Source: Pteria penguin (Eukaryota > Mollusca > Bivalvia > Pterioida > Pteriidae). Taken from it: DNA of 64,000 nucleotides. Where the stretch lies: contig CM068583.1 of NCBI GenBank assembly GCA_035048485.1, positions 22,047,341 through 22,111,340 of the forward strand, given 5' to 3'. Position 1 is the first letter of the stretch. Each line of letters begins with the position of its first letter. A model generated the notes under the pieces. That model ran no database searches and had not been told where the DNA came from. It saw nothing but the letters and a program-made list of their open reading frames with translations. This document shows, piece by piece, positions 24,113-59,826 of this stretch. Made by a program: the position numbers and the translations under genes.

Positions 24113-24119
24113 AGTAGTC

Positions 24120-24151
24120 CAGAGACATATATACACAGAGACTGGAAACTC
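24120..24151 (+). repeat. Left terminal inverted repeat, 32 bp
   Basis: Begins cagagacatata and ends ctggaaactc; it is the exact complement of 39,446-39,477. Preceded by agtagtc. Confidence 0.8.
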
Positions 24152-24244
24152 GCCGCTTCGTCCGGCATATGATGCACGTCCTTTTGTTATGCTAATTAGG
24201 TGACCGCGCTCTACAATACACCGATTTTAACCGTCGGATATCGC

Positions 24245-24312
24245 CCGGGGACGTATAGCGCAGTTGGTGTTTCCTGCCGACGCACCTCAGTTCAAATTCT
24301 ACGGGCATTTAT
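24245..24312 (+). tRNA. tRNA-like sequence (degenerate or SINE head)
   Basis: An A-box-like tagcgcagttgg, a B-box-like gttcaaattc and partly pairing ends (gcccg/cgggc) over about 65 bp suggest a tRNA-derived sequence. The stems are imperfect and the anticodon arm is unconvincing, so it is probably not a functional tRNA. Confidence 0.35.
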
Positions 24313-24524
24313 TATTATTTTTTTTCTTTTATATATATATTTTTTTGTTAATTCTATCGATGTGTAGAAATAATATTCTCCTTTTTCTTTCTAAAAAAAT
24401 CGAGACAAACTTGTATCATTAATCATTATAAAAATATTTTTAAAACCAAGATTTTTACTGAGACGCCTTCATTTACTGCTTTTTTAAAATAATTATTTCT
24501 ATTTATATATTTATTCATTTTAAA

Positions 24525-25265
24525 CAGCGTTTGTTGCCATTTACGAGTTGTTGATATATGCAATCAATGCCCCTGCCTTTACTACTGTTTGTTCACCACC
24601 TCAGGGGAAGCACTAGCGTCTGTCTTTGTCATTCATGGGTAGTAAATAACAATGTTGTGTTTATTAAAAAATTCAGATGGTAAATAGCAAACAAAATAAT
24701 GTTTTATCTTATATGCACTGTTGACGTGGTATGAGCTGTTTTACTCCCTCCTATGTAAAGAAGTAAAATGAAAATGGCGATCCAGGCGTCTAAAGAAATT
24801 TCGCATTGCAATATGTCCAATTACGTGTTGATAACTTCTTCAATTCGTACTTAAATGGCAACTTTAATTTGTTAATGTGTCTGTGCCCCCCCCCCCCTTG
24901 CACTTATTATTTTTATTTATTTATTTATTATTTTATTTTCTAAACAGCTCTTGTTGCCATTTTATAGGAGTTGTTTATATTTATCTTATAAGGCTGAGCA
25001 ATCAATGCATCTAGGAAGGTAGTAAATAACAATTTAATGTTTATTTTAATATTCAGATGGTAAATCATAAAACAAAATAATTTCTGTACCTGTTGTGCAC
25101 ACTTCACGTGATACGAACAAGATTTACTCCTTTGTAAAGAAGAAGAAAAAAACCCCACACAAACAACAAAAACAAAATGGCGACCCGCCGGCCACAGAAA
25201 ATTTGCATTGCAAGATGTCGCCTTACGTGTTTATATCTGCTTCAGTTCTTACTACAATAACAACT
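24525..25265 (+). repeat. Diverged tandem duplication, ~330-bp units
   Basis: 24,525-24,860 and 24,945-25,265 share the same order of words: aaacagc..ttgttgccat, agtaaataacaat, attcagatggtaaat, aaacaaaataat, cacgtg/gacgtg, tttactcc, aaaatggcga, ttgcattgcaa and ttacgtgtt. Both contain aaaatggcgaycc, a Kozak-like ATG opening only a short frame. Lying just inside the element's left end, it could be a duplicated promoter or subterminal region. Confidence 0.65.
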
Positions 25266-25913
25266 ATGACTTCTTTGATGATTATAGTATGACTTTCAAT
25301 ATAAAAACAATATATATCTCGACAGGTTATATGATTATTTTGCTCTATATGGTATGGTATCGGTTTTCTTGTTAAAAACGATTGAATATTTACCGCGTAG
25401 ATAAAATTGGATTAAAATCAAATAACGAATAAAGTCTTCTACACCCAATGATATAAAATGTGTCTGAAACCTTTCTTAACACACACGTGTGAGTTTAGTC
25501 ATGTAAAGGACATTAATTTTTGTTGTTTTAACAATTTTTCTTGCCGTTGTCGTTTCTCAGCGGGTTCGGTAGTGAGGAGAAAAATGTCGCGAGGTCCTCA
25601 AATACGACCGGGTAATTATGCATGATTTACGGATATTTCATATGAAAATTAAAGCACTATGACTATAATAAACATTGATGGTGCTATAAACGAAAAATGG
25701 TGGCATGTGCTTCAATATTGTGTAAATGTTTTGCATAAACCCAAGTGAATGTGTTCAGAGGTCTATCACAACTAATGGCTTCTGATCGGGGTTATGTCTT
25801 CACATTGAATAGATCATATATGAAATGTTTTATGATTCAAATGATTAGTATATTGCTTTTTTTACTTATCTGAACTACCTTTGTTTAAAAAGCGATGAAA
25901 ATTCCTCTTCTTT

Positions 25914-26133
25914 GCAAGCCGGCGCTACTAAATGAAGTCCGGAGAAGTCCGGAGAAGTCCGGAAAAAAAGTACGAGGGTTGGGGGGTTGTAAAGGGCATC
26001 CGGAGATAGATTGTGATAATATCTAATAAATTTCCAAGTTTCATCCAAATATATTGAGTAGTTTTGATTTTATAGGCTCACAAAGTTTCCCGGTGATTTC
26101 CAATTACTGAGCGCCGCCATATTGGATCGGGAT
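25914..26133 (+). repeat. Left subterminal inverted repeat (~220 bp)
   Basis: Runs from gcaag through three copies of gaagtccggag to ccatattggatcgggatc. It is nearly identical to the reverse complement of 39,111-39,332. It includes a GCCGCCATATTGG stretch resembling a YY1-type site (inference). 25,270-25,913 holds nothing else I can name. Confidence 0.85.
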
Positions 26134-27184
26134 CTATATACTGTCATACGGAAGTTATGTATATATCTCTCGATTAACGTTATAGTTCTTTTTTGCGAAA
26201 ACTAAAGTAGACTTTCCAATAATTGTAAATGGAATCACTTAAAAAAAAAAAAAAAAAAAAAAATAACTGATGTTGTTCGCCCAAGGCCATGTATCGTTGG
26301 CCTTAAAGCTTGTTTATGAGAAAAAAAGAAAGGATCGAAGAAAACAAACTAACTTTCAAGATTTTATTGATATGAACCTTACATGTTGGCATTATCAATA
26401 TACAACAGAATATTCAACTAAAAATACATAAATATAGCATGAATAAACAAGATATAATAGAATATTACATAAACAGATCTGTAATATTTCAGGCATGAAA
26501 CAGACTGGATATTTTGAGCAATAAAATAACAGTAGAGTGTCAATGATTCAAAACATATGCATCTCGTATTTTAGAATAGCAATGGACTAGATACTTTGAG
26601 CTTATCAATAATAAAGCAGATATAGATATCAAAATAAAAGACTAGGCACTTTAAGCGTTGACAAGGAAGAAGTAGTAATAGATATCAAAATAATGATTCA
26701 CAATAGATGTATTGAATGATGAAGTAACACAAAACTTTTAAATGTAGTGATCTATAGTACAGGAATTAAGTTCATCTATATGACATGGATAATTCAATTT
26801 CTATCAAGACAGGTGAGCATTCCGCCAAAACAAAATTGTATTAAAAGTTCGCAAAACCATAACAAGGAGTATAATGTTTATCATAATGACATCATATATC
26901 ATGACATATTTTGTTAAAAATAAATGTGAAATATTTTGTCAACTACATGCAAAGCATTAAATAGGAGACCAAGGAAATTTCAAAAATAAATAAGAGGAGT
27001 AAGTCATGTTGAGACTTAATAAAAGGGTACAATCAAAGACAGGATAATTATAGATTTATATAGGATTATTAAGTTATTTGATTTTTTTTTTCAAAGCATA
27101 GAATTAAAGTATTATATAAAGTGAAATATAAAAATGTTTGTGGAAATATCTTTTCTTTCTCTCATACCGGTTTTGCCTTTCATT
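26134..27184. other. Non-coding, AT-rich; probable 3' flank of the Tpt1-like gene
   Basis: An A-run of about 23 nt (26,240-26,263) and AT-rich DNA. No ORF with recognisable content. If the Tpt1-like gene is transcribed leftward, its 3' UTR and poly(A) site would lie here. Confidence 0.5.
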
Positions 27185-27717
27185 TCACAGATATTCAATA
27201 CACTTGAAAAAAGATGGTCTAATATACCCACTCCTGTTGCCAAGGGCTACAACTGTGCCGTTGTTGGTCCAGTGGAGGTTCCCGGGGTTGCGTCTAAGGA
27301 AAAGGTCGACGTCAAGATGAATGACCACTTCGGAATGGCGCCTGACTGCTTCCGGATGCTGGGCGAAGTGGACGTATTGTCTATCCATTCTGTAGAGGCC
27401 AAACTCCTGGATATCTGGAAGCGCTGCCCTGGTAGTTCCGTGGCCGCAGTAGGGAACGTCACATGCATGTTCCACTGGTGTCAGAATAGTGTCCAAGGCT
27501 ATGTTGATGGAATGGCCGCTGCTGGCTCGCACGTACTGGCCGTCTGATGAAACTTCCAGGCGCTCCTTCTGCATGGTGCCGGCTATCCATCTCACGTAGT
27601 TTGAGTCGAAGTGTTGGAAGTCTTCTAACTGTCTGATGTCTCCCAACCACACCCATCCACGCGTTGTCATCGGCAGGGAATAGTCGTGACGCAGGGCTCG
27701 CACGAGACGTCTGGAAT
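27185..27717 (-). CDS. Tpt1-like gene, catalytic exon
   Basis: The preferred acceptor is ...catcctcag|ATTCC at 27,717, which matches the phase of the upstream exon. An alternative acceptor (ttttttag) at 27,727 would need a phase-0 partner. It ends with a TGA after CIEYL. The ORF read on the opposite strand (27,134-27,547) is its shadow. Confidence 0.85.
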
Positions 27718-29048
27718 CTGAGGATGACTAAAAAAGAAAATGTATCAATGTGTGTTAGTAAAGTAAAACGACTATAAAAATTACACGACGGGTATGCACC
27801 GAATAGGACGGTCAGTGACAGTATCATAAAACTTTGATCAAATCCCAAGATTTAGTTATTTGTCCAATACTGTCTATAACAACTGTGACTGTGAACGAGG
27901 TAACAAAATGTTTCTATTCCAATTAAATGTGAATATCAGGTAATGTCTGATTACTACTGAGATATATGGACGGACATGCAGACAGACCAACGCTGGACAA
28001 ATTTGTCTTATACGAAACGTATGTTATCCGCGTAATTTGGAATAAAACAGCCAAAGATGACACAAAGCGATATGGAAATTGATTTTTTTTCTCCAATCCA
28101 AAGAAGTGTTGGTGGGAAACTGTTAAAAGATTATGATTAGAGAAATCCAACAAAAGCTAGAATTCAATCCAACTCTGGAAAATGTTCTTTGCAAACAACA
28201 CAACAACAGATTAAAATGTACATGAAATACAAATTATCCTAAGGCTTCTTACCATCCTTAAATTTTATACATCTAAGAACTTTATAATTCAACCAACCCC
28301 ACTCAACTGGTATTATAAACACGATGTATCCCTCTACAGTACCCAGATTTTCAATATGGTAATCGATAGAGATCAAGTACACTCCAGTAGGAGGGTCATG
28401 GGGCCTTCCCTGAAAAATTTGTTTTATAAATAATCACTGAACTTTGAACAACCATTTTATGTAACATCAAAAATAAATTAGAATAAATTTAAGAACATTA
28501 TTTCACAACAAAAATATTTAGATTTGGATAGTATGAGATACTTTCAAAGTAAGCATCATGCAGTCATATGTAGCACAATACATTATGCATACGCATGTGT
28601 AGGTATCAAAAACTCCGAAAGGTAACAAAAGGTTCCTTAAAACATATAATAGAATATGATCGGACAAAAATTCGAAGGACATGAACTGACCTTCGTCGAA
28701 AGTAAAAAGTAAAAAACAAAATATACATAAGATGGAAAACTGAGGGGGGGGGGTGTTGTTCTTCCCAAATCTCCCTTAATCCGCCCTTGTAATTAATTCT
28801 ACGTTAATTCGTAGATATGGACACACCGTGTGTTAAACAAGAGAAGAACGAACGTTGTAAATGATGAAGATCAAATGAACAATACATCTAAGTGAAATAT
28901 AAATATATTTGATATCTAAGTTTTGCGTACATGTTTTGAGCATTTGTGCATGGTATGAAATAAACTTTAATCCTTATAATCATAAATACATAACAAAGAT
29001 TTATTCACTTTCTACATGTTAAGATCTGGTTTCATTACACACATATAC

Positions 29049-29088
<40 letters not shown>

Positions 29089-30378
29089 TTTTTTATGTAC
29101 TCCCAAGCCAGGGCGATGTTAGGTAGATGTTTGTTGTCAGCTATCGGTTGTTTATGATTAATACACTCCCCGGGGCGATTACTGTCACCTGTTTCGGATC
29201 GTGCGAGGTGTGTTAATTGATTAATTGATTGCATCGAAAAATGCCAATATACATGGCTTTATTTGGTTTCGGTCTGTATTCAAGATAAGGTAAATCATCA
29301 TATTGATATTATGAGCTTGGAAGACTTCCTCAGTATACACCTTATAAATAATTTCTGTCTGCAGTATTACCTTTGTAAACCTATCAATCACTATTAACAA
29401 AAACTTATTGCAAAATTCAGATTGTCCTGACATGATTTAACTACAGAGCGTGGCAGATATCACAACATTGATAGAAACCAACATATTTGTATTTTTTGTA
29501 ATTCATAGATGATATTGAGGACAAATTCCAATTCATACTAAAATGTCCATTCTACCAAGAAATTAGAGTTCAATATATCAAAAGGTATTATTTCACGAAA
29601 CCCTGTGTATTTAAGCTTGTTTAGCTTTTAAGTGTAAGCAATGTTAAAGAACTTTCTACACTTGGTAAATTTATATCAATGGCTTTAAAAAGAAGAGCAG
29701 AGATTTTATGAAATATTCAGATGTAGGCTAAATGTGCACTTATCTTAAATAATCGCTTATTCACTCTCAATATTGAGTATCTGAATCTGTATATATTGTA
29801 CATATTCATCTGATGTGTGCGACATACAAAAACAAATGAATTGAACTGAATTTAAATTGACACAAAGTCATACACAAGGTACTCCATTTGCCAGTTCTGG
29901 TCCAATTAAAGGCATATACATACATACGTGTATTACATGATTGTCCAAATATTATGGAATAAATGCTAACTTGCATAAAAATTACTTGTATTTGCAATTT
30001 ATTTTGAATAAATACTGTTTAAACTAACCTGCATAAAGAAAATCAGTTCATATAAGTTAGGATGACTGAGCATTAAATAATAATACTTTCATTAAGCTCT
30101 TTCCTAGGGTAACTGATATATACTTGCTATATTGTCCCTAATTGCTTGAAATTTTCCTTCAGTACATTTTGCGCAGAAAATATTGAACACTACTTTTGAA
30201 TACATAGAAAGAAAAATTAAGTTTTGGTCATTTTAACAATATGTAAATGAAATTACACCCTAAGGAAAGCCTATTATAGGCTGAAGACATATTTGGTCAC
30301 TTTAGAACATAAGTATACAAGTAATAATTTTAAAGTGTGAAAATTAACAGAAAATATCACACTCACCTTGTAAGACAT
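27185..30378 (-). CDS. Tpt1/KptA-like RNA 2'-phosphotransferase
   Basis: The main exon (27,717 or 27,727 down to 27,185) encodes a full KptA/Tpt1 domain. This family removes an internal RNA 2'-phosphate using NAD+, classically after tRNA splicing. Visible landmarks are RALRHD (catalytic Arg-His), GWVWLGDI, DGQYVRASSGHSI (the IRAxQGHS motif, with Gln replaced by Ser), HGTTRAAL, RMDRQYVHFA, RRHSEVV (the position of the last conserved Arg) and NNGTV. The C-terminus matches the family's usual end. A phase-compatible model adds an exon at 28,409-28,253 and a start exon at 30,378-30,367 (MSYK then gtgagt), giving 233 codons. These 5' exons are less certain. It diverges from the SGNH-like gene and lies inside a transposon-like element rather than among host genes. 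The four catalytic residues appear intact; the Gln-to-Ser change and GC-rich codon use are the odd points. Confidence 0.8.
28253..28409 (-). CDS. Tpt1-like gene, probable upstream exon
   Basis: Acceptor ...aatttttcag and donor gtaaga enclose 157 nt open in a single frame, starting GRPHDPPTGVYLISIDYH and ending KFKD. It leaves one base, which fits the acceptor at 27,717. I do not recognise the encoded sequence. Confidence 0.5.
29049..29088. repeat. (AT)n-(AG)n compound microsatellite
   Basis: About ten AT dinucleotides followed directly by about ten AG dinucleotides. Confidence 0.9.
30367..30378 (-). CDS. Tpt1-like gene, possible start exon (MSYK)
   Basis: ATGTCTTACAAG followed by a perfect gtgagt donor, in phase 0 as the next exon requires. 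It is only 12 coding bases, so it could be coincidence. The 28,410-30,366 interval would be intron; it holds an (AT)n/(AG)n microsatellite at 29,049-29,088 and no other gene I can support. Confidence 0.4.
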
Positions 30379-30929
30379 GATGCAAAGCAATTATTTCTAA
30401 GTTCGTGTCGAAGGAATATCAGTAACAAATGGCAGTTCTATTCGGAATATGGTCTGAAGACGATGGTACACCGTATATGTACATGTCTTAATTGTAATAT
30501 TCAACCAATGACAATATTACATAACGGATTATGCAGTAATTAAATCATGTAATTAGCCCAGAATTATTTATTGCAATGCTGTGATTAGCTAAAGATAATT
30601 AGCATCAAAGAGAACGCTTTAAAATTAGTAGCCTACAATTATCTAATTATCACCGCTTAATTGCCAAGAATTTCTGGAATGTGTAGTTATCTATCTTAAT
30701 GTTTGACCAATTGCATCGACGTTATTATAACGGTTATAGAAATTTCTTTAATGTGATTGACCTCTTAGCCAATCTGATTGGATATTAAGGCCAAATTACA
30801 TAGCTATTAAAAGAGCATTCCTCAATCTGTCCTTCATTACAATATCGATTTCATGCGCTGAGGTCTTATTGCTGAGTTAACAAACGATTTTATTGTTGTA
30901 ATTTTGATTTATAAATATTCGTTTCAGAT
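30379..30929. promoter_or_regulatory. Putative bidirectional promoter region
   Basis: About 550 bp separates the proposed MSYK start of the Tpt1-like gene (minus) from the ATG of the SGNH-like gene (plus). It is AT-rich with repeated taatta and aattag words and no ORF of note. The acceptor-like tttcag 3 nt before the SGNH ATG hints at a 5'-UTR intron. Promoter function is inferred only from the head-to-head arrangement. Confidence 0.35.
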
Positions 30930-31634
30930 ATGTCCACCAGGATTGATGTCATTGGTCATTCCTTTGTACGACGGCTCCAGGAGTGCATTACCAGACGTGC
31001 AGTGCCAGAGGGGATGCCCGAAAGCCCCTTTTATCCCGACTTCGGTCTTGTCGGGATGCAGGTAAGGTTGCATGGGTATTGTCCAGATGGCCGGAATCTT
31101 AGTCGTATTGAACATGCTGTATTGTTGACGCGCTCCCACCTAATGCAGAATTACTGTGTAGATCCTCCGTATGCAGTAATTGTGCACGTAGGCGGGAACG
31201 ACGCTGACAGCAGCATGTTCAATTTAGACTGGTATCTGGCCACCTTGGATAATCTCCTTGGAACCCTTCTTTCTTGCAGCGTAACCCGCATCGTGGTGTG
31301 GGTGCGCCGTTCCCAGCGTCCTCGTGGTTTCCTGTCTTACGAGGCAAACCGTAAGGAGATTAATCAGTCCGTTCGTCGATTGGTGTCCTCGGTGTATCGA
31401 CGGCACGTCTATTTCTTTCAGTGGGACGACCGTCGGTTCACCGAGCACCTTTGGTCTCGTGATGGGGTCCACTTGAATGTGCGAGGGATGGTGCAGTACT
31501 ACCATCAGATGCGGGTTGCCATGATGCTGACCCCTTCCATGCCCTTCACCGCTGTGTCTCTAGGGAGACACCGCCATCGGCCAAGCCGACGACGAACACG
31601 AGAAGACCGCAGGTATAAGTATGTCCCGTATTAA
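30930..31634 (+). CDS. SGNH-hydrolase-like protein (234 aa)
   Basis: An uninterrupted ORF with the three hallmark blocks of the SGNH/GDSL hydrolase superfamily: VIGHSFVRRL (block I, Ser nucleophile in GHS), IVHVGGNDAD (block III, GxND) and RDGVHLN (block V, DxxH). Length and spacing fit a single-domain SGNH fold, but the block I motif is GHS rather than GDS. Such proteins, some possibly catalytic and some not, occur as accessory ORFs of several animal transposable elements, for example Ngaro-type and CR1-type retroelements. Here it sits in a DNA-transposon-like unit, head-to-head with the Tpt1-like gene. The tail is Arg/His-rich (RHRHRPSRRRTRED), suggesting nucleic-acid contact. A gtataagt sequence 22 nt before the stop could be a splice donor giving a different C-terminus. 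Codon use is much more GC-rich than the flanking DNA. Confidence 0.8.
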   Translation: MSTRIDVIGHSFVRRLQECITRRAVPEGMPESPFYPDFGLVGMQVRLHGYCPDGRNLSRIEHAVLLTRSHLMQNYCVDPPYAVIVHVGGNDADSSMFNLDWYLATLDNLLGTLLSCSVTRIVVWVRRSQRPRGFLSYEANRKEINQSVRRLVSSVYRRHVYFFQWDDRRFTEHLWSRDGVHLNVRGMVQYYHQMRVAMMLTPSMPFTAVSLGRHRHRPSRRRTREDRRYKYVPY

Positions 31635-32533
31635 CGTTCATTGAAACACTATATGTAAAATGACCTGAATTTTAACTAAACATCAGAAGTAAATTAATTT
31701 TTTATATAAGCTTCCTTCTTATTCAATTGTTGATTTTTTTTAAAAAAAGTTTAATTTCACCGTCTGAATTTTGAAAATGAACTGGCTTTCCATACATATC
31801 ACCCTACATGTATATTGACTCCTACATTGCTAATCGTCAAATCATTTATAAAAAGTTCATACTAAGAGAGAAAAGTAGACTATATCTTGAATCAAATTTC
31901 AATTTTAATGCAAAAATATATACAACTAAATTTTTATTGGATTACTCTTTTTCATGTAATTATGTCTATTTCAAGTATTTTTTTTTTTTTAGTAAATCTC
32001 CCTTTAATTCTGTGCATTAGTTTAAAATCAATAACATGTTTGAAAATGAAACGTTTATATGATCTGTAAAGAAGAGATAACTCCATTTGGGTTTAAGAAG
32101 AGTTCTATCTAATTGGTATTTCAGGGACCTTATGGTAAATGTAGGGTTTTTTTTCTTAGGTTTTTTTGATATACATGTATATATATGTGTCTGGTTTTTT
32201 TTTTTTTTTTTTTTTTTGTTTTGTTTTGGGTTTTTTTATTGTTGTTTGGTTTTTGTTTTTTTTTTTGTTTTTTGTTTTTTTGTTTTTTGTTTTTGTTTTT
32301 TGTTTGTTTTGATAATCATTTATTTCCAAATAAAGCCAGATCTTAATATTATTTCTTTTATATGTATGTCATATAAATGAATTGATTTATTTCTAAGATT
32401 TATCATCCCTTATTGATTTTGGGTCGTGACTGTCAATAATGTGGTTAAATATAGTTTCTTTTCTCTGTTTTATTTTACTCTCTCTTACAAAGTATGTTTT
32501 GTTTTTCTTCTTTTATTTTGGGGGATTTTTTTT
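31635..32533 (+). other. 3' flank of SGNH-like gene, T-rich
   Basis: AT-rich sequence ending in a long T/G-rich tract (32,150-32,320) and no credible ORF; the Phe-rich frame at 32,087-32,380 is low complexity. It probably represents 3' UTR leading to the hairpin module at 32,534. Confidence 0.5.
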
Positions 32534-32633
32534 TTGGCTCTTATAGAGGTGGCCTCCACGTGGCAAGAGCTGGTAACGTTGTTGAGAAATAAATAAAAAC
32601 TATTTTTCTCTCAACAACGGCTGACAACCTCTG
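32534..32633 (+). terminator. Double-hairpin 3' module, copy 1
   Basis: ttggctcttatagaggtggc opens a stem (gctctt/aagagc) followed by gttgttgaga and ctcaacaac arms that enclose AATAAATAAA, a poly(A)-signal-like sequence. The same ~100 bp, in the same orientation and also preceded by a T-tract, occurs at 38,011-38,107. One copy lies after each of the two plus-strand genes of the element. A role in 3'-end formation is inference. Confidence 0.55.
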
Positions 32634-32704
32634 TGAATTTAATATGCACCAAAGGATTTACTTTTCAATTCATTCTCATTTGTTATATATATATATCAGC
32701 GTCA

Positions 32705-32995
32705 TCTACAAAGTTGACAAAATATTGTCGTATAAACACGAAGCCAAGCGAATAGGGGGGGGGGGGGGGGTTCCTCCTCTGGATTCCCTGTGCTAGAGAA
32801 ACAACTGGCGCCACAAGTCTGGCTAAAAGCGCACATGGTGCATATCACGGTATATTGTCGAATAAACACGAAGCCAAGCGAATGGGGCTTTTTGTGGCAA
32901 ATTCTTATTGCTAGAAAAACAGTTGGCGCCACAAGTCTGGCTAAAATCGCATATAATGCATATCAAATGCGTATCACGGACATTCTTGGTTCATC
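32705..32995 (+). repeat. Two-copy ~125-bp tandem repeat upstream of the transposase gene
   Basis: tattgtcgtataaacacgaa, gccaagcgaat, ctggcgccacaagtctggct and tgcatatcacgg occur in order at 32,724-32,849 and again at 32,850-32,990. It lies 200-500 bp before the PHD-OTU-MULE start codon and may be promoter or transposase-binding sequence. Copy 1 carries a G-run of about 17. Confidence 0.7.
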
Positions 32996-33206
32996 GCCGT
33001 GAACGGTCAGGTGCTGTTTCAGAGGTATTGTTGCTTTCATATTGTGTTCGCATTTTAAATTGTTATTCTATATTTATTTTAAATTGCGTGTAAATATTCG
33101 TTGTCGTTGGTAGTATTGTAGCTTAGTAGAAGTTGTACACGTGTATATATACCGTAGTAGTTTTTATTTTCTTTTGTGTCCTAAGATCGTACTTAAATAG
33201 TACACG

Positions 33207-36200
33207 ATGTCGTCAGTTGGACAGGTCGTCGACTACCCTTGTGGTACTTGTGGGAAAAACTGTGAGGGCGTACTAGAGGTCGGATGTGACAGTTGCGATG
33301 GTTGGTTTCATTTAGAATGTGAGGGAATCGCTTCTGTTGATTTCAAGTTTCTGCGTAAGACCAAACTAGCGTATGTCTGTTCTAAATGTACGCACACCAA
33401 AGACAAGACATACAACTACGACCTAGCTATAAAAAGGTTGACGTCTGCTGTCTCTCGTGGTAAGGTAGCTGAGGCATTAAGGTTGGAATCAATTCTCATG
33501 CGAGCTGAAAACATGGCGTGTCAAGGTCAAATATCACTACCTGAAGGGTCCCCATTCTTCAGAGATGCACAAGCTGAAATCCTGCTAGGTCCTGAATGGG
33601 TTGGTGCATCACCCTTTATGGTCAAGGCCGACGGTAACTGCCTGTTCAATGCCCTATCTGTCTGTTTGATAGGCAACGAATCCATGGCAACTGAATTACG
33701 AGTGAAAACCGCTATAGAAATGTTCAACAATTCAAAATTCTACAAACATTCCAAAGAGTCGTACCGCCTTGTCAGTCCCCCCTTTTCTGATGCACTGTCA
33801 GACTGTGCAACAAACAAAGCCTTCTCGTCATCTTGGACCATACACGCGGCAAGTAATGTTTTAGGTTGTCCCATTCAGACAGTTTACCCCTTGGTAAACG
33901 GGCTCGCCGATAAAAACATTACAATTCTTAATCGGAGCTTTGTCCCAAGGACCCCAAAGAGTAAGAAGGAAGTTATAATCATGTGGTCTGGGTCCAGTGG
34001 GCAAAATAATGGCATGTGGGTCCCAAACCATTTCGTCCCCTTATTGGATCGGAAGGAAAGTCGTAATGTCATTGACCTTGACGACACAATTCAGTTTCCC
34101 TCCCTACCTTCCCGCAAAATAATATTACCCAATAAAAATCAATGTGACAAACGCCCAAAAAGCAATCAAATTAACAATAAATCCCCTCTACCTAAAACAG
34201 ACCATTCCCCTCGTCCCCCCATGGCAGATGTATCGGATACCGATGACTCAATTTCTCTCCCACCTCACACAGTTTCCCCTCTTTCCACAATCTCTGATTG
34301 TTCGGATAGTGATGATTCGACCGTTACCCCTCTTTCACCGGAAATTTCCCCCCTCGCAAGTCGCATAAAATTAAGCAATAATATCACAAATAACAAACTA
34401 TCCAAAACCGATAGGAGACAACCCCCTACCAAAATTTCGGGAGACAGCACCAGTCCATTGCTCGAAACCGAGTCCTCTCCTAAATCTTTGACATCAAAGA
34501 TCGATGTCTCCTCATCTCCGACGATAGATAGTGACTTGTCTGACACTATGGACATTACGGATTTATCAGATGCTGTTACTCACCCATATAAGAATCCCAC
34601 AACATTCTCATTGAACGGGGGATTCCTATCTCTCGAGTCTTTATTACACGCGGCAACCGAAGTCGAGCATATGGGGTCCTCCATCCCTAGAGGTATTAAA
34701 GAAAATGTTTATTTCGTTTTGGACGATACGAAAAACATTGACAGGCGTCAGTCTGGAAAACAGAGTGAATATCGAGATGATTGTGGGGCTTGGGCTTCAA
34801 AAAAAAATTCTACAAAATCACATTATTATGTCAAGAAGGATGATGGTAAACTGACATACGTGGAATTGAAAAATGGGGTTTTTTGCACAGAAAAGAAAAG
34901 AAAATTTATACCTATCAACCCCCAACCCTCTTCCGAATCGATTGTAACTATAAAGCGAAAATATTCTTATCTGGATAGAGACCCCAAATACAGAAAGAGA
35001 GTGACCTGGATTGTGTGTACCCCACCAATCGAAAACGCGGTAGTTGAATACTTAGGCCCTTTTCCGGCAGACACTGTCCATGGGAACGCGAAACACATTT
35101 CTGCCCCTTATCAGCGTTTGATGGAAGGTCAAAACAATATCATTAGGGAGGGTCTAAAGCACAACAAACCCCCCAGGGCAATTAGAAGGGACGTAAATTC
35201 TGAATTCCCAGATGACATTGTCGATTTAAAACTAGTACAAAATGCTGTGTACAATCACAAATCGAAGAACAGACCCGCAAACGAAAATAGGCAAAACGTG
35301 GCCGATGATGTTTTGTCTATAATGAACAAATTATATTCGGGTACTTACGTGAAAGAGGTCATTGCGACGGGTTCTAACAAACCACCGAATGTAATTTGTT
35401 ATACAAATGAACAACTTCGTCTCCTTAAATCGGCTATATTAAGTGGCTGCATCATTGGTGTAGATAGGACATTCAATGTTAGTCCCCATTTTCTGACCAC
35501 TCTATGTTTCAAAAACCCAAACGTTGTACAAAAACGTACGCAGGATTCCCCAATCATGTTAGGACCCATATTTTTACACTGGGATGGGAAATTCGAAACA
35601 TACCAGCGATTCATGTCGCACCTGCAAACCTTATTAGTCAAATTGCCATCTGTGAAAGATAGGCATCTGGATGTTTCTTTTGGTAAGGTGATTTTTGGCA
35701 CTGACGGTGAATGTCACTTGGTTAATGCAATCAATGCTTGTTTTCCACGAGCTGTGCAGACGCTTTGCACAAAACACCTTAAAGACAATACGCGTTTCAA
35801 TTTACGGAAGACCTTTCCAAGCCCCGTTGTCGAGCTTATTGTTGACAAAATTTTCCATCCCAACAATGGCCTTTTAAGTACGACGGACAAAATTATATAC
35901 GACGAAAAGGAAGCGGAACTCACGCAGGAATTCACATGTTCATACCTGACCGACACATTGCTACCTACACTTAGGTCAAGAGTGTTCGAACCCAGACTCA
36001 AATGTCCGAACATCCCCAAGCTCTGGACAAATAACAACAACGAGTCGTACAACAACAAAATAAAACAAGCCACGGACTGGACAATTTTAAGAACTCCAGA
36101 TTTGATAGACGTATTAGAATCTTTTGAGAGAGAACAGGTAGCAGAACTTAGGGGGGCTCTGTACGGAAAGGGTAACTATGAGCTCACCGAAACGGCATCG

Positions 36201-36449
36201 GTGTTGCGGGTTTCAAACAAGACCTGGGGGAACCTTACGGAATCAAAACAGTATTCAAGATTACTTAGACTTTTAAATCTAGTGCCATCAGAACATAACT
36301 ATACAACTTCTACAGATGGTAGATTAAAAGTACCAAAAGTTGCCAAAGTTGCAAAAAAACCCGGACAAAGAAAACGGGTCAAAAATAGCAAAACAACAAC
36401 AATTCAATCCAAACGCAAAAAACTTTTGGACGATGACTCCGACGAATAG
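33207..36449 (+). CDS. PHD finger + OTU protease + MULE-type transposase (1080 aa)
   Basis: A single intact exon. Residues 12-61 form a PHD finger (C12, C15, C27, C30, H35, C38, C58, C61), a histone-tail reader fold. Residues ~138-282 are an OTU-type cysteine protease (deubiquitinase fold): KADGNCLFNAL carries Asp142 and Cys145, and WVPNHFVPLLD the His275. A Ser/Pro/Asp-rich linker (290-460) follows. Residues ~600-960 match MULE-type transposases: GVDRTFNVSPHF (Asp753), VIFGTDGECHLVNAI (Asp833), CTKHLKDN and NNNESYNN (Glu946 as possible third acidic residue). The C-terminus is a basic nuclear-localisation-like tail (GQRKRVKNSK, KRKK) ending DDDSDE. The ATG at 33,207 is chosen because the PHD begins at once; a T-rich leader precedes it. 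There are no stops or frameshifts over 3.2 kb, so the gene may be recently active or under selection. It is the likely transposase of the 15.36-kb element. Confidence 0.9.
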   Translation: MSSVGQVVDYPCGTCGKNCEGVLEVGCDSCDGWFHLECEGIASVDFKFLRKTKLAYVCSKCTHTKDKTYNYDLAIKRLTSAVSRGKVAEALRLESILMRAENMACQGQISLPEGSPFFRDAQAEILLGPEWVGASPFMVKADGNCLFNALSVCLIGNESMATELRVKTAIEMFNNSKFYKHSKESYRLVSPPFSDALSDCATNKAFSSSWTIHAASNVLGCPIQTVYPLVNGLADKNITILNRSFVPRTPKSKKEVIIMWSGSSGQNNGMWVPNHFVPLLDRKESRNVIDLDDTIQFPSLPSRKIILPNKNQCDKRPKSNQINNKSPLPKTDHSPRPPMADVSDTDDSISLPPHTVSPLSTISDCSDSDDSTVTPLSPEISPLASRIKLSNNITNNKLSKTDRRQPPTKISGDSTSPLLETESSPKSLTSKIDVSSSPTIDSDLSDTMDITDLSDAVTHPYKNPTTFSLNGGFLSLESLLHAATEVEHMGSSIPRGIKENVYFVLDDTKNIDRRQSGKQSEYRDDCGAWASKKNSTKSHYYVKKDDGKLTYVELKNGVFCTEKKRKFIPINPQPSSESIVTIKRKYSYLDRDPKYRKRVTWIVCTPPIENAVVEYLGPFPADTVHGNAKHISAPYQRLMEGQNNIIREGLKHNKPPRAIRRDVNSEFPDDIVDLKLVQNAVYNHKSKNRPANENRQNVADDVLSIMNKLYSGTYVKEVIATGSNKPPNVICYTNEQLRLLKSAILSGCIIGVDRTFNVSPHFLTTLCFKNPNVVQKRTQDSPIMLGPIFLHWDGKFETYQRFMSHLQTLLVKLPSVKDRHLDVSFGKVIFGTDGECHLVNAINACFPRAVQTLCTKHLKDNTRFNLRKTFPSPVVELIVDKIFHPNNGLLSTTDKIIYDEKEAELTQEFTCSYLTDTLLPTLRSRVFEPRLKCPNIPKLWTNNNNESYNNKIKQATDWTILRTPDLIDVLESFEREQVAELRGALYGKGNYELTETASVLRVSNKTWGNLTESKQYSRLLRLLNLVPSEHNYTTSTDGRLKVPKVAKVAKKPGQRKRVKNSKTTTIQSKRKKLLDDDSDE

Positions 36450-37215
36450 TAGTTCCATAAAATATACATCATGTTCGGCCTGAAATGCAGGCTTGCCGTT
36501 CCATAAAATATACATCATGTTCGGCCTGAAATGCAGGCTTGCCGTTCCTTATATTTCATCATATTCGGTCTGAAATGCAGGTTTGCCGTTCCGTAAGATA
36601 TACATCATGTTCGGCCTGAAATGCAGGCTTGCCGTTCCATAAAATATACATCATGTTCGGCCTGAAATGCAGGCTTGCCGTTCCGTATATTTCATCATGT
36701 TCGGCCTGAAATGCAGGCTTGCCGTTTCGTAAGATATACATCATGTTCGGCCTGAAATGCAGGCTTGCCGTTCCGTATATTTCATCATGTTCGGCCTGAA
36801 ATGCAGGCTTGCCGTTTCGTATAATATGCATCATGTTCGGCCTGAAATGCAGGCTTGCCGTTCCTTCTATTTCATCATGTTCGGCCTGAAATGCAGGCTT
36901 GCCGTTTCGTATAATATGCATCATGTTCGGCCTGAAATGCAGGCTTGCCGTTCCTTATATTTCATGTTCGGCCTGAAATGCAGGCTTGCCGTTCCTTATA
37001 TTTCATGTTCGGCCTGAAATGCAGGCTTGCCGTTCCTTATATTTCATGTTCGGCCTGAAATGCAGGCTTGCCGTTCCGTACGATATGCATCATGTTCGGC
37101 CTGAAATGCAGGCTTGCCGTTCCGTATATTTCATCATGTTCGGCCTGAAATGCAGGCTTGCCGTTCCGTATAATATGCATCATGTTCGGCCTGAAATGCA
37201 GGCTTGCCGTCCCCT
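36450..37215 (+). repeat. Hairpin minisatellite, ~17 units of 41-46 bp
   Basis: It begins within a few bases of the transposase stop codon. Each unit holds the invariant core ttcggcctgaaatgcaggc plus ttgccg, in which gcctg-aaatg-caggc pairs as a stem-loop with outer cggc/gccg pairing. The AT-rich spacers vary (46, 44 or 41 bp). Every frame stays open on both strands by virtue of the repeat. It would sit in the transposase 3' UTR or act as a subterminal binding array. Confidence 0.95.
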
Positions 37216-38010
37216 ACATTACCCTTAAGTTGCACTGAGATATGCTATAGGCTTAATTCTCCTTTTGCTTTTGTTTGATAGTAATCTCTGCTAATGCATG
37301 GACGAGGTTTGCACCTGACCGGTAGTTTGCATGTTATTGGGTTTGATTGTTTTATCATTTAGTCACTGTACATTGTCTGTTACTTCATAACTTAAATATT
37401 TTTGTTTGGCTTTTTTTTTTTACTTTTTTTTATGTATTTTTATGTTATGTACTTTTAGTATTATTTTTTTTTCGATAACTTTCAAATTTATTTCTGGCTT
37501 TTCATATAATGACATGCATAAGTTTACTTTTATCTAAAGACTTATTTTCTTATCAATATTCATGACATTCATTTTTTCTTTATAATTTTAGTCCTTTTTT
37601 ATAATGTTTTGAAGAAGATATGACAATGTTGTCGAATTTTTATTCCTTTCTCATTCAATTCAGTCTCTCATTCATTTAATCATTCATTAAGAATGTATTC
37701 ATTTGTCTACTTATTTTCTTTATATCTTTGATTTATTTATTATCCCCCATCTCAATTTGTAATTTTTACATGTTAATTTATCGTTTGGATTAATGTGAAT
37801 GACATTTAAATCATAACCTTCTTTCCAGTATTTTATTTTTAATTCCTTTATTTAATATCTTCAAAATCAATTGTAAATTTCATATATTTTAATTTCTCTT
37901 CATTCCATTTCTTTGTTTTCATGTTTCTATTCCTTCTTTCTATTTTTATTTTATTTTATTATTATTATTTTTTTTATTTTTTATTTTATTTATTTTTTTT
38001 CCTTTTTTTT
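37216..38010 (+). other. T-rich 3' flank of the transposase gene
   Basis: No ORF or recognisable element; strongly T-rich toward the end, mirroring the tract before the first hairpin module. Confidence 0.5.
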
Positions 38011-38107
38011 TTGGCTCTTATAGAGGTGGCCTCCACGTGGCAAGAGCTGGTAACGTTGTTGAGAACAAAATAAAAACTTTTTTCTCAACAACGGCTGACA
38101 ACCTCTG
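38011..38107 (+). terminator. Double-hairpin 3' module, copy 2
   Basis: Nearly identical to 32,534-32,633, including ccacgtggcaagagctgg, the gttgttgagaa/ttctcaacaac stem with AAAATAAAAA in the loop, and ggctgacaacctctg. It lies about 1.56 kb after the transposase stop. Confidence 0.55.
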
Positions 38108-39110
38108 CATAGGTGGGTCTAGAAGTTTTTGAAAGGGGGGGGGTGTAGTCTCCTAAATCTAATGCTTTCCACTATTAGGACCACACAGGGGTGATGTCGC
38201 ATCACTCAACAGCAGTCATGCTAAAATAGCCTGGGGCAGCTAGGGGAAAGAATATTACGCCCGGGGTTTGTGTGTGGGTTTAATGGCTATATATGACTTT
38301 AATTATTGATTTGATATTTTTTGTATCCTATTGGGTATGAATTTTAACAACATTTATACTATTTAATCAGGAATGACCAAAAAATAAATGAATAAATAAA
38401 TAACTAAACGTACTGATGAATGAAATCATGATGTTACAGTGCTGGTTTTTATGGGAATAGGATAGGTTTTAATAAATCTGAGAATGAACGTTTTTAAAAA
38501 CAAATAATGCAATATAAATTATATCAATATGTTTCTTTGACTTCATAATCGACTGCATACAATTGCAGTTGTACAGAAGGGGCGTCCCTCCATGTACATG
38601 TATATTTACGTGTTGTTCTACACATCATGTCACATGTGCATCTACTAGAAAATTTTCTACATTTCAAAGAACAACAATTTAATTGCTTTGCTTGTTAAGG
38701 TCATTACAAGTGTACATAAAAATGTATATTCAAAAGAGCAACATTATTCCCAATAACTAATAACAGTTTCACGAATACATTTACGATAGGTTTAGTAATT
38801 CGTGATAAAACATGCAAATATTGATACTGATAGGATACAAATACTATTGAATTAATTAATAAAGTATATATATAACAATAAAAACCAACAAACAATCTCT
38901 CGGGCATACCTTTTTTCCGGGCTGCGTCGGGCTGTTTTTAGTATGACCCCTAAATAGTAAACATGGCCGAAAATTACATTTTTTCTGTCCCAAGGGGGTT
39001 GCAACCCTCACCCTAGATCCGCCAATGCTCTGATTCATAGAATATTAATGTCAAATTGTCAACGAGTTTACATTTCACCATGTATACATGTATTAGTATA
39101 ATCACACTAC
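38108..39110. other. No gene seen
   Basis: Non-coding. 38,920-39,025 (tgtcccaagggggttgcaac, gatccgcc) is a small dispersed repeat resembling the complement of 62,846-62,930. Confidence 0.45.
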
Positions 39111-39332
39111 GGATCCCGATCCAATATGGCGGCGCTCAGTAATTGGAAATCACCGGGAAACTTTGTGAGCCTATAAAATCAAAACTACTCAATATATTTG
39201 GATGAAACTTGGAAATTTATTAGATATTATCACAATCTATCTCCGGATGCCCTTTACAACCCCCCAACCCTCGTACATTTTTTCCGGACTTCTCCGGACT
39301 TCTCCGGACTTCATTTAGTAGCACCCTTGCAA
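39111..39332 (-). repeat. Right subterminal inverted repeat
   Basis: Reverse complement of 25,914-26,133 with only a few differences (for example near the a-run by gtacattttttccgg). Outside it lie about 115 bp and then the right 32-bp TIR. Confidence 0.85.
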
Positions 39333-39445
39333 GCTTAATGCTTTCAAGCGAATGAATGCCGAGAACAATATGGCGGACTTCCGGCTTATCGAGATGCCTG
39401 TCGGGAAATGTTACTTATGTCAGGGAGCTATATAGCTTTCAATGG

Positions 39446-39477
39446 GAGTTTCCAGTCTCTGTGTATATATGTCTCTG
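39446..39477 (-). repeat. Right terminal inverted repeat, 32 bp
   Basis: Ends tatatatgtctctg and is followed by agtagtc. Exact complement of the left TIR. Confidence 0.8.
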
Positions 39478-39507
39478 AGTAGTCTATATCTTTGATTTTT
39501 ATGCGCC

Positions 39508-41303: not shown

Positions 41304-41690
41304 GAGCTCGGGTAGCTCAGTCGGTTAGATTTTGTTTGATTATTGTTTTACGTCACTCCACGATTATTTCACGTATATGGTGACGGCATCTGCCTGATGC
41401 ATTGCATACAAATTTAGACCTTTGCAACGGACCCACCCGAAGCAGTGAGGGATCTTTTACGTGCCACGCCTACCGTGACACGGGACCTCGGTTTTTACTG
41501 TCTCATCCGAAAGACAGAACACCGGTGTGTCCCGGGCGGGAGTCGAACCCGCGACCTCTCGATCACGAGCCGAGCACCTTATCCACTAGGCCACACCGGC
41601 TTCAGTCGGTTAGAGGGTCGGATGCATGACAGCTAGGTGATTCGGCACCATAGGTCGTGGGTTCGAGTCCCAGACGGGGAACGAATATAA
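41304..41690 (+). tRNA. tRNA-like sequence split by a SINE (not a functional tRNA)
   Basis: 41,304-41,329 carries an A-box-like tagctcagtcgg. After the SINE, 41,602-41,685 continues with the duplicated target and a B-box-like gggttcgagtccc. Joined across the insertion it would be tRNA-related, but with an overlong variable region and poor acceptor pairing, so it is probably itself a SINE head. Confidence 0.45.
41330..41601 (-). mobile_element. Full-length tRNA-derived SINE with 13-bp target duplication
   Basis: On the minus strand it starts gccggtgtggcctagtggat (A box), has gggttcgactccc (B box) and a foldable tRNA-like head. A conserved body (agacagtaaaaaccgaggtc, gcatcaggcagatgcc) follows, and it ends in a tail with caataatcaaacaaaa. 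tcagtcggttaga flanks both sides (41,317-41,329 and 41,602-41,614). It is the best-preserved reference copy of the SINE family in this window. Confidence 0.9.
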
Positions 41691-42516: not shown

Positions 42517-43032
42517 TAAGTCGTACAAACGAGATACTAAGTCGTACAAACGAGATACTAAGTCGTACAAACGAGTTACTAAGTCGTACAAAAGAGATAC
42601 TAAGTCGTACAAACGAGATACTAAGTCGTACAAACGACTTACTAAGTCGTACAAACGAGTTACTAAGTCGTACAAACGAGATACTAAGTCGTACAAACGA
42701 GATACTAAGTCGTACAAACGACTTACTAAGTCGTACAAACGAGATACTAAGTCGTACAAACGAGATACTTAGTCGTACAAACGAGATAATAACGAGAGAG
42801 CATGAACGTGTTTCAGATTGATCTTTGTACGTGTTCCCCGTGCTTTATACGGCAACGTAGAAAGGTCACGAAGAAAATTTTTTTAAGTCGTACAAAAGAG
42901 TTACTAAGTCGTACAAACGAGATACTAAGTCGTACAAACGACTTACTAAGTCGTACAAACGACTTACTAAGTCGTACAAACGAGATACTAAGTCGTACAA
43001 ACGAGATACTTAGTCGTACAAACGAGATAATA
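42517..43032 (-). repeat. 21-bp minisatellite, left array (two blocks)
   Basis: Units of aagtcgtacaaacgagatact (21 bp; variants ...gagttact, ...gacttact) run from 42,517 to 42,790. An ~80-bp spacer (aacgagagagcatgaacgtg ... acggcaacgtagaaaggtca) precedes a second block to 43,030 and a second copy of the spacer start. 21 is a multiple of 3, so every frame reads as a heptapeptide repeat (YDLVSRL, SYKRDTK and so on). I treat these as non-coding. Confidence 0.95.
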
Positions 43033-43089
43033 ACGAGAGAGCATGAACGTGTTTCAGATTGATCTTTGTACGACGTGTTTCCCGTGCTT

Positions 43090-45961: not shown

Positions 45962-45974
45962 TATATGAGACAAG

Positions 45975-46137
45975 AAAACCGAGGCCCCGTGCCGTGGTAT
46001 GCATGGCACGTTAAAGATCCCTCACTGCTTCGGGTGGGTCCGTTGCAAAGGTCAAAATTTGCATGCTTCGCATCAAGCAGATGCCGTCACCAAATACGTG
46101 CATTAATCGTGGTGTGACGTTAAACAAAAATCAATAA
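45975..46137 (+). mobile_element. SINE, 5'-truncated, plus orientation
   Basis: Starts in the body at aaccgaggccccgtgcc, contains cgttaaagatccctcactgc and gcatcaagcagatgcc, and ends with an aaacaaaaatcaataa tail. It lacks the tRNA-like head. Confidence 0.75.
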
Positions 46138-46854
46138 GTCATTCAATTTTTCGTTTTAAAATAATTTTTCTTATGTACTAACGGGCTTTCGTACTTTGGG
46201 GCACTGGTGATTTCAATGCTGAGAAGAAATATTTTTCTCCTTCAGGTTAGAATGATGATTTAAAGTGAATTAAAATTATGTTATTCTTGTCATAATTATA
46301 TGATAAGAATGTTACTAATAAATGATTTTGTTTTTTCAATATCTCATTTTTTGGATTATTTAATGATTTTTTAAAGACACCCCTCCCCCTCCCACATGTG
46401 GCAAACGGCTTTCCTCATTTGTCGATTAATCTTTTTCATAACCACAGCTTACTGGGGTTAACCAAATACTTTTTATAAACTTTAAAATAATGTTTCTTTC
46501 TGACAATGCCACAACAGCGGACTACGTTGTTTTCTGGCAACTCATCTTTACTTTTCTAACCTAGATGGGTCTAATAATAGCATCTATGGCACACAAGTAA
46601 GTGATATAGGCCCCTTTGGACCTCTTGTATTCCCATTTTGACAACTTGTATAAATTTGTATATGAAATCACTATCGTAAATTCAACAAAATTTGGCAGAA
46701 CGCATTTGACAAAACTCAAATACTTGGACTCCCCATTGCTAAGGGAGTAGCAATTTAATCTTTAAGATGGAAAAGGGGGAAGTTCAGAAAGACCTTTTGC
46801 CAGCCCTTTGGGCCGCATTATTATTATTCCACGTATTTGTCAAATTTACCGAAC

Positions 46855-54711: not shown

Positions 54712-54991
54712 TTGATTGATTGGTTTTTGTTTTACGTCACATCACACGATTATTGCACGTATTTGGTGACGGCATCTGCCTGATGCGGGGCATACAAATT
54801 TTGACCTTTGCAACGGATCCACCCGATGCAGTGAAGGATCTTTAACGTGCCATGCCTACCATGACACGGGACCTCGGTTTTTACTGTCTCATTCGAAAGA
54901 CAGGACACCGGCATGTCAAGAGCTGGGCTCGAACCCCGGACCTTTCGATCTTAAGTCGAATGCCATACCACTAGGCCACGCCGGCTTTCTT
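54712..54991 (-). mobile_element. Full-length SINE with target duplication
   Basis: Same family as 41,330-41,601: head ending gccggcgtggcctagtggta, body gcatcaggcagatgcc, tail aaaaaccaatcaatcaacc. Flanked by agatattgg at 54,703-54,711 and 54,992-55,000. Inserted in the intron of the integrase pseudogene. Confidence 0.9.
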
Positions 54992-55275: not shown

Positions 55276-55545
55276 TTGATTGATTTTCGTTTTAACGTCA
55301 CACCATGAATATTTCACATATATGGTGACGGCATCTGCCTGTTGCAAGGCATAGAAATTTACACCTTTGCATCGAACCCATCCGAAACAGCGAGGGATCT
55401 TTAACGTGCCATGCATACCACGACACAAGACCTCGGATTTTGCTGTCTCATCTGAAAGACAGGCCCGACATGACCAGAAGGGGTATCGAACCCGACCTTC
55501 CGATCAAGAGGCAAGAGCAATACCACTAGGCCACTCCGGCTTCCC
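55276..55545 (-). mobile_element. Full-length SINE with target duplication, diverged
   Basis: Same family, more diverged (B box ggttcgataccc). tggatttacaa flanks both sides (55,265-55,275 and 55,546-55,556). Also inside the integrase intron. Confidence 0.9.
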
Positions 55546-57143: not shown

Positions 57144-57740
57144 TGACTATCTCGTTTGTACGACTTAGTATCTCGTTTGTACGACTTAGTAAGTCGTTTG
57201 TACGACTTAGTATCTCGTTTGTACGACTTAGTAAGACGTTTGTACGACTTAGTATCTCGTTTGTACGACTTAGTAAGTCGTTTGTACGACTTAGTATCTC
57301 GTTTGTACGACTTGGTAAGTCGTTTGTACGACTTAGTTTCTCGTTTGTACGACATAGTAAGTCGTTTGTACGACTTAATATCTCGTTTGTACGACTTAGT
57401 ATATCGTTTGTACGACCTAGTAACTCGTTTGTACGACTTAGTAAGACGTTTGTACGACTTAGTATCTCGTTTGTACGACTTAGTAACTCGTTTGTACGAC
57501 TTAGTATCTCGTTTGTACGACTTAGTATCTCGTTTGTACGACATAGTATCTCGTTTGTACGACTTAGTAAGTCGTTTGTACCACTTAGTATCTCGTTTGT
57601 ACGACTTCGTATCTCGTTTGTACGACATAGTATCTCGTTTGTACGACTCAGTAAGTCGTTTGTACGACTTAATATCTCGTTTGTACGACTTAATATCTCG
57701 TTTGTACGACTTAGTATCTCGTTTGTACGACTTAAAAAAT
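57144..57740 (+). repeat. 21-bp minisatellite, right array (~28 units)
   Basis: Units of ctcgtttgtacgacttagta(t) are the reverse complement of the left array at 42.5 kb. The outer flank (aaaaaattttcttcatgacc, tttctacgttgccgt) mirrors the left outer flank. All frames are open as heptapeptide repeats over about 600 bp; I regard these as artefacts of the period. Confidence 0.95.
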
Positions 57741-59626: not shown

Positions 59627-59826
59627 TTGATTGGTTATTGTTTTACGTCACTCCACGATTATTTCACGTATATGGTGACGACATCTGCCTGATGCATTGC
59701 ATACAAATTTAGACCTTTGCAACGGTACCCACGCAAAGCAGTGAGGGATGTTTTACGTGCCACGCCTATCGTGACACGGGACCTCGGTTTTTACTGTCTC
59801 ATCCGAAAGACAGGGCACCGGTGTTA
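59627..59826 (-). mobile_element. SINE lacking its tRNA-like head
   Basis: Body and tail of the same family (tgcctgatgcattgcatac, gcaaagcagtgagggatg); the match stops at gacagggcaccggtgt, where (AT)n begins. Confidence 0.85.

Follow-up and report, generated by a model that had tools for sequence, protein, structure and literature searches.

Which of two pairs of inverted repeats marks the ends of a transposon when both enclose the same three genes, and do these genes belong to it? The question is raised by a stretch of 64,000 nucleotides from the bivalve Pteria penguin (contig CM068583.1, positions 22,047,341 to 22,111,340; hereafter the window, numbered from its first letter), in which a preliminary description had recognized a single 15.36-kb DNA transposon with perfect 32-bp terminal inverted repeats (TIRs), a 7-bp target duplication, a subterminal inverted block of ~220 bp, and three genes, one for an intact PHD-OTU-MULE transposase, one SGNH-like and one Tpt1/KptA-like. 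Searches of the 838-Mb genome (49 contigs) from which the window itself originates led us to a different reading, namely that two cut-and-paste transposons are nested here, and that the inner one, a Mutator-like element (MULE) of 13.4 kb, carries the KptA and SGNH genes as accessory genes kept for a long time by selection. We consider this reading probable, at about 80%. Accessory genes of animal cut-and-paste transposons are little known, and had the outer TIRs been accepted as the termini, a spurious 15-kb family would have resulted.

The repeats themselves are as had been described (Table 1). The 32-bp inverted repeat is perfect, had no match in 100 shuffles and has 322 exact matches in the genome (159 forward, 163 reverse; a backward control had none in either direction), and the 7-mer AGTAGTC lies immediately outside each end. 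Among the first 100 of the 322 matches listed, 32 convergent pairs were found, with a median spacing of 1,927.5 bp (29 of the 32 are spaced by 1.8-2.0 kb), and such pairs enclose a common internal sequence without genes. If the MULE and one copy of its duplication are removed from the window, the two outer segments (24120-25919 and 39335-39477) make up 1,943 bp, to which the paralog L001 is 96.4% identical over bases 388-1943, uninterrupted at the junction at 1800, and the paralog L008 90.5% identical over bases 899-1943. Both outer paralogs that span the junction (2/2; the other outer loci read fall short of it) exhibit the empty MULE site with a single TTGCAAGC. Besides the window copy, two outer copies have 7-bp duplications of their own (ATTTAGT in L001/L002, GTTTCGA in L006/L007). 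The TIR spacing, the uninterrupted paralogs and these duplications identify the outer element as an independent, apparently gene-less transposon, and an older, high-copy, apparently non-autonomous element of ~1.93 kb has thus been interrupted by a MULE of the autonomous type. The nesting also explains why the long inverted block is placed so asymmetrically, with 1,768 bp between it and the 32-bp TIR on the left but 119 bp on the right, as the block and the 32-bp TIRs belong to different transposons. Judged by divergence, the outer element predates the MULE inside it, because its copies differ by several per cent and those of the MULE by about 0.1%. Target duplications of hAT transposons are of 8 bp; a hAT assignment of the outer element, considered for its CAG ends, was rejected on the 7-bp duplications in the three copies read. 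A tRNA-like stretch resembling A and B boxes was noticed by eye near the outer left end (about 24255-24320), where ARAGORN makes no call.

The block of ~220 bp is real, with a length of about 215 bp, but rather than being subterminal it is the true TIR of the MULE, which spans 25920-39326 (13,407 bp) and whose two TIRs are identical at 212 of 214 aligned bases. The genome search with this block, which had been proposed as a check, yielded 40 scored matches out of 128 candidates; 13 places were fetched, 11 of which are two-ended copies of 1.4 to 13.4 kb. All 11 have target duplications at the identical TIR boundary, of 8 bp in ten cases and 9 bp in one, which sets the limits of the MULE. The transposon with TIRs, a duplication and three genes therefore exists, but with other boundaries and a length of 13.4 kb instead of 15.36 kb. 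Its gene order from left to right is KptA (minus strand), SGNH and the PHD-OTU-MULE transposase (both plus strand), followed by a minisatellite. Another full copy, the search for which had likewise been proposed, was found at C2:37.27 Mb; it has 12,563 bp, all three genes in the unchanged order, and 13 substitutions in 12,538 bases aligned to the window, the proteins being 99.8% (transposase, over 1080 aa), 98.3% (SGNH) and 100% (KptA) identical, while 848 bp of the window copy (31957-32804) are unaligned. The objection that no other copies exist thus falls away; its counterpart, that the 32-bp repeats could be parts of independent short repeats, was borne out. Deletion derivatives retain KptA and SGNH without the transposase (C1_63.92), KptA with the C-terminus of the transposase (C11_38.39), or KptA alone (C2_24.5 and C11_17.31). 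The second complete copy and several derivatives at near-zero divergence show that the family has moved very recently. Direct copies of 130 bp (89% identical) were also noticed inside the MULE, at window positions 32502-32633 and 37978-38107, and they are present in C11_38.39, C1_63.92 and the C5 copies as well.

Table 1. Positions of the outer element, the inner MULE and its genes in the window.
Feature	Position	Strand	Basis or remark
Left 7-bp target duplication AGTAGTC, outer element	24113..24119	+	sequence
Left 32-bp TIR, outer element	24120..24151	+	perfect inverted repeat, genome-wide matches
Left segment of outer element, broken by MULE	24120..25919	+	paralog alignment
Left 8-bp target duplication TTGCAAGC, MULE	25912..25919	+	single copy at empty site in L001, L008
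Left long TIR, MULE	25920..26134	+	inverted block; 40 or more matches in the genome
Tpt1/KptA-like gene, terminal exon (181 codons including the stop)	27185..27727	-	PF01885, E 8.1e-24
SGNH/GDSL-like hydrolase ORF, 234 aa	30930..31634	+	PF13472 sub-threshold; motifs IGHSF (8), GGND (88), DGVH (178)
Transposase, 1080 aa, single long ORF: PHD finger (12-61), OTU (140-225), MULE DDE (D753, D833, C854-x2-H857, E946)	33207..36449	+	Pfam, alignment
Minisatellite with units of 46/90 bp, after the transposase and ahead of the 3' TIR	36452..37222	.	1.9 kb before TIR
Right long TIR, MULE	39112..39326	-	inverted block
Right 8-bp target duplication TTGCAAGC, MULE	39327..39334	+	sequence
Right segment of outer element	39335..39477	+	paralog alignment
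Right 32-bp TIR, outer element	39446..39477	-	perfect inverted repeat, genome-wide matches
Right 7-bp target duplication AGTAGTC, outer element	39478..39484	+	sequence

All three genes that had been named are present. The open reading frame (ORF) of the transposase is intact, as is that of a second full-length transposase at C2:37270585-37273824. Its PHD (PF00628) and OTU regions score above the Pfam cut-offs (24.5 bits against 24, and 29.3 against 23.3), whereas the MULE domain of the window protein remains below (15.8 against 27.6 bits), and passes in the close relatives P0004, P0005, P0006, P0008 and P0009. The putative catalytic residues are invariant in all 14 aligned proteins, one encoded in the window and 13 taken from the 24 proteins found. 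Together with the long TIRs and with duplications in the 8-11 bp range, as is characteristic of the MULE superfamily, these residues place the element in that superfamily. In Pfam scans of 20 of the 24 proteins (P0003 was scanned separately), OTU was detected at E 0.01 in ten, six of them above the cut-off, and PHD and OTU together in two, Pinctada imbricata P0004 (49% to the window protein) and P0019. Because of this sharing, the PHD and OTU domains, which had been counted as cargo, are better regarded as N-terminal transposase domains of a wider lineage. Scans with the transposase, the transposase alignment and the KptA alignment revealed no relatives in viral contigs. In the gene model of P0020 from Mytilus coruscus a NADAR domain lies N-terminal to a MULE transposase, which may be a prediction chimera.

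The Tpt1/KptA-like gene is represented by a terminal exon that contains the whole domain (PF01885, 85.1 bits, cut-off 26) and is directly preceded, at 27728, by an acceptor-like TTTTCTTTTTTAG. The nearest solved structures are those of tRNA 2'-phosphotransferase 1 (E 6e-13), and the Arg-His-Arg-Arg tetrad named for Tpt1/KptA (PMC6582358) corresponds, by alignment to 7yw3, to R13, H14, R67 and R129. Some relatives lack the full tetrad (C11_12.79 has G for R13, C5_42.33 R for H14, P0003 K and C10_7.94 P for R129), and therefore not every open frame need be active. The best named relative is the Pinctada protein P0003, at 50%. No differences from the window gene were found over 543 bases in four other copies and over 486 bases in a fifth, a uniformity that reflects recent spread and not selection, because the rest of the element is almost equally uniform. 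Between the more distant genes at C1_62.64 and C10_7.94, dN is 0.033 and dS 0.155 (non-synonymous and synonymous divergence), and between the window and C1_62.64 the corresponding proportions of differences are pN 0.256 and pS 0.791, the latter saturated; at the level of codons, KptA thus shows the mark of purifying selection. A candidate multi-exon host TRPT1 gene was found at C8:56.57 Mb, whose exon looks by eye like that of an ordinary animal TRPT1 and differs from the MULE gene. About ten near-identical copies of such a TRPT1-type exon (profile 28-84) are scattered over many contigs. Fragments of the C-terminal end that include a stop recur as well, and it seems that exons of the host-type gene are carried by a different repeat.

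SGNH/GDSL hydrolases are characterized by conserved Ser, Gly, Asn and His blocks. Of these, the Ser, Asn and His blocks were compared, and their motifs GHSF, GGND and DGVH are kept in the window, C2, C6, C10 and C1 proteins; one relative (L067) passes the family threshold with 41.2 bits.

How old the association of the two genes with the MULE may be was assessed from a tally of 43 of 87 KptA, 38 of 52 SGNH and 50 of 50 transposase rows, from which weak fragments and any additional pieces of an already counted place were omitted; the transposase list holds 43 scored of 806 candidates. One block, C5:41-60.5 Mb, holds 30 of the 43 tallied KptA and 27 of the 38 tallied SGNH loci, many of them broken, and may be a transposon graveyard or a non-recombining stretch. 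Proximity was counted over all places outside this block, with pieces merged (27 KptA, 11 SGNH, 30 transposase). Within 15 kb of a listed transposase there are 4 of the 27 KptA (0.03 expected) and 4 of the 11 SGNH loci (0.01 expected), and 4 of the 27 KptA loci lie near an SGNH gene (0.01 expected). Older associations are also discernible individually. At C5:54.14 Mb a copy of about 85-94% nucleotide identity has the three genes in the window order, with KptA and SGNH broken. At C11:12.79 Mb an open KptA (54%) lies 8.4 kb from a PHD-OTU transposase (42-46%) in the relative orientation of the window, with no SGNH, and at C6:55.68 Mb 7.4 kb separate a KptA (61%) from an SGNH gene (41%), both of them open. 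An open SGNH (31%) stands in the opposite direction beside transposases of ~40% at C10:46.41 and C1:70.94 Mb. These observations support the view that part of one MULE lineage has long had KptA and SGNH as accessory genes, kept by selection.

Several results weigh against this view. The majority of close pairs stem from recent copies of the window element (three of the four KptA-transposase, two of the four SGNH-transposase and three of the four KptA-SGNH cases), which reduces the independent deep associations to about four places, and two of the sites, C10:46.41 and C1:70.94 Mb, are near-copies of each other. Neither gene was found within 15 kb of 24 of the 30 listed transposase places outside the C5 block, nor in the 8.1 kb upstream of the older copies L057 (59%) and L059 (37%); no listed transposase lies near the open KptA genes at C1:62.64 and C10:7.94, the first 6 kb to the right of the SGNH at C6 hold no transposase, the three genes do not occur together in any deep relative outside the C5 block, and in older copies KptA and SGNH are broken. 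The genes themselves also leave room for doubt, as the first KptA exon was not located in the window, the window SGNH reaches 27.2 bits for PF13472 against a cut-off of 32.9, its relative L066 hits no family at E 0.01, and a single-sequence structure model of SGNH (mean pLDDT 43.5) is too poor for use.

Some of these results are what one would expect if the MULE had gained KptA and SGNH by chance, in the manner of Pack-MULEs, and the genes were hitch-hikers without service to the element. MULEs are known to acquire pieces of host genes (PMC6446971, PMC6431247), KptA lies 1.0 kb inside the left TIR and persists in deletion derivatives, as would be expected for any DNA near a TIR, and both genes are dead in many copies and missing near most listed transposases outside the C5 block. 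Yet neutral freight would not be expected to keep its domains complete, its frames open and its dN/dS low across 39-61% identity, nor to show a recurrent association in diverged copies, and we regard passive capture as rather unlikely. It could also be argued that KptA and SGNH come from another mobile or clustered family and joined the MULE lately, the apparently deep associations being nested insertions in transposon-rich DNA; the concentration of both genes in the C5 block, which is rich in transposons, and the open KptA loci that stand apart from listed transposases fit this idea. Against it, C11:12.79 and C5:54.14 match the gene order and orientation of the window, the proximity counts outside the C5 block exceed chance, and the Pinctada KptA (P0003) and transposase (P0004), which may or may not be linked, are equally diverged from their window counterparts, at 50% and 49%. 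Late joining appears to us quite improbable. As for one transposon of 15.36 kb, perfect TIRs and matching 7-mers do surround everything, but the 32-bp TIRs pair elsewhere at ~1.93 kb around gene-less sequence, gene-bearing copies elsewhere end in the 215-bp TIRs with 8-bp duplications of their own, and none of the other copies seen has both TIR sets in the window arrangement, so that this possibility can be practically dismissed.

Among known systems, the animal MULE clades MULE-Mollusca and MuDR-6_HM (Dupeyron et al. 2019, PMC6446971) resemble the nested MULE in their long TIRs, 8-11 bp duplications and DDE transposase, and the cnidarian MuDR-6_HM transposase shares the OTU domain. Several MULEs carry extra ORFs, as here, but for the mollusc and MuDR-6_HM groups the portion available tabulates one ORF, and no KptA or SGNH (PMC6446971). 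With 13.4 kb the element is long compared to arthropod MULEs, which reach up to 9.97 kb (PMC13359780). Rehavkus elements have a PHD finger in the transposase, a minisatellite before the 3' TIR and TIRs of 26-400 bp, all in agreement with the element here; on the other hand, no OTU, KptA or SGNH is given for them in the part consulted, and their duplications are of 9 bp (PMC6446971), against 8 bp in 10 of the 11 copies here, because of which membership in Rehavkus is not shown by these features. Ginger1 transposases have acquired OTU or Ulp1 and once a PHD domain, but possess a Gypsy-type integrase and not a MULE transposase, and a role of the protease in transposition was proposed for them (PMC2836005). 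The nearest precedent for the accessory genes is, by analogy, Hiun, an Arabidopsis MULE with the accessory ORFs vanB and vanC, of which vanC is described as anti-silencing, though it is a plant element and the proteins are unrelated (PMC6446971). Terminons share a GDSL/SGNH-type accessory gene, but are retroelements at rotifer telomeres (PMC6431247). Pack-MULEs hold genes or gene pieces between MULE TIRs and have no transposase gene, whereas the full copies here keep whole enzyme domains together with a transposase, intact at 1080 aa in both; the transposase-less derivatives C1_63.92 and C2_24.5 do resemble Pack-MULEs. No MULE with KptA or SGNH was found in the literature searched (PMC6446971, PMC13359780, PMC6431247, PMC10294476, PMC2836005), a partial coverage that leaves absence unproven. 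What is new, as far as these genomic patterns indicate, is the presence of KptA and SGNH genes, with signs of long-term membership, in one MULE lineage.

MULEs transpose by a DDE cut-and-paste mechanism with an 8-bp stagger. Accordingly staggered cuts, 8 bp apart, would accompany excision and insertion by the DDE domain of a transposase bound to the long TIRs, while its OTU and PHD parts may work in cis, OTU as a module of protease/deubiquitinase fold and PHD as a chromatin reader, helping the transposase to operate in chromatin or to withstand ubiquitin-based control. The KptA-like enzyme would most likely use NAD+ and target phosphates of RNA or DNA, either terminal or at the 2' position, SGNH may act as a hydrolase, and both would probably help the element against the host or in the handling of ends, like the extra ORFs of some MULEs. 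The KptA activity might serve escape from silencing, the protection of ends or the repair of RNA. Human and bacterial TRPT1/KptA modify 5'-phosphorylated single-stranded RNA in vitro, and human TRPT1 also single-stranded DNA (PMC6582358). Extending this, KptA might be a transposon-coded anti-silencing or end-protection factor that ADP-ribosylates 5'-monophosphate ends of piRNA-type small RNAs or of transposon DNA, with SGNH as a second helper, and nucleic-acid ADP-ribosylation would then have become part of the life cycle of a MULE lineage; the in vitro activity motivates the idea, the piRNA step is our own, and we hold the whole to be unlikely. A young MULE that has a second intact full-length copy, and whose NAD-dependent RNA/DNA-end enzymes have been retained over deep divergence, would offer a testable case of nucleic-acid ADP-ribosylation used by a transposon.

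NADAR was considered as a third ADP-ribose link and rejected, as the number of matches within 9 kb of a piece of a transposase, one, is close to the chance expectation (estimated at 0.18). The domain (PF08719) matches at least 150 places in the genome, among them sets of ORFs of 436, 487 and 1687 aa that score equally, and looks multicopy and transposon-borne. Elsewhere in the window, dispersed repeats with tRNA-like parts (41332-41603, 45965-46147, 54716-54987, 55276-55543, 59627-59824 and 62580-62757) probably represent a family of short interspersed elements (SINEs), and a 21-bp satellite forms two arrays in inverted orientation, at 42517-43033 and 57148-57734.

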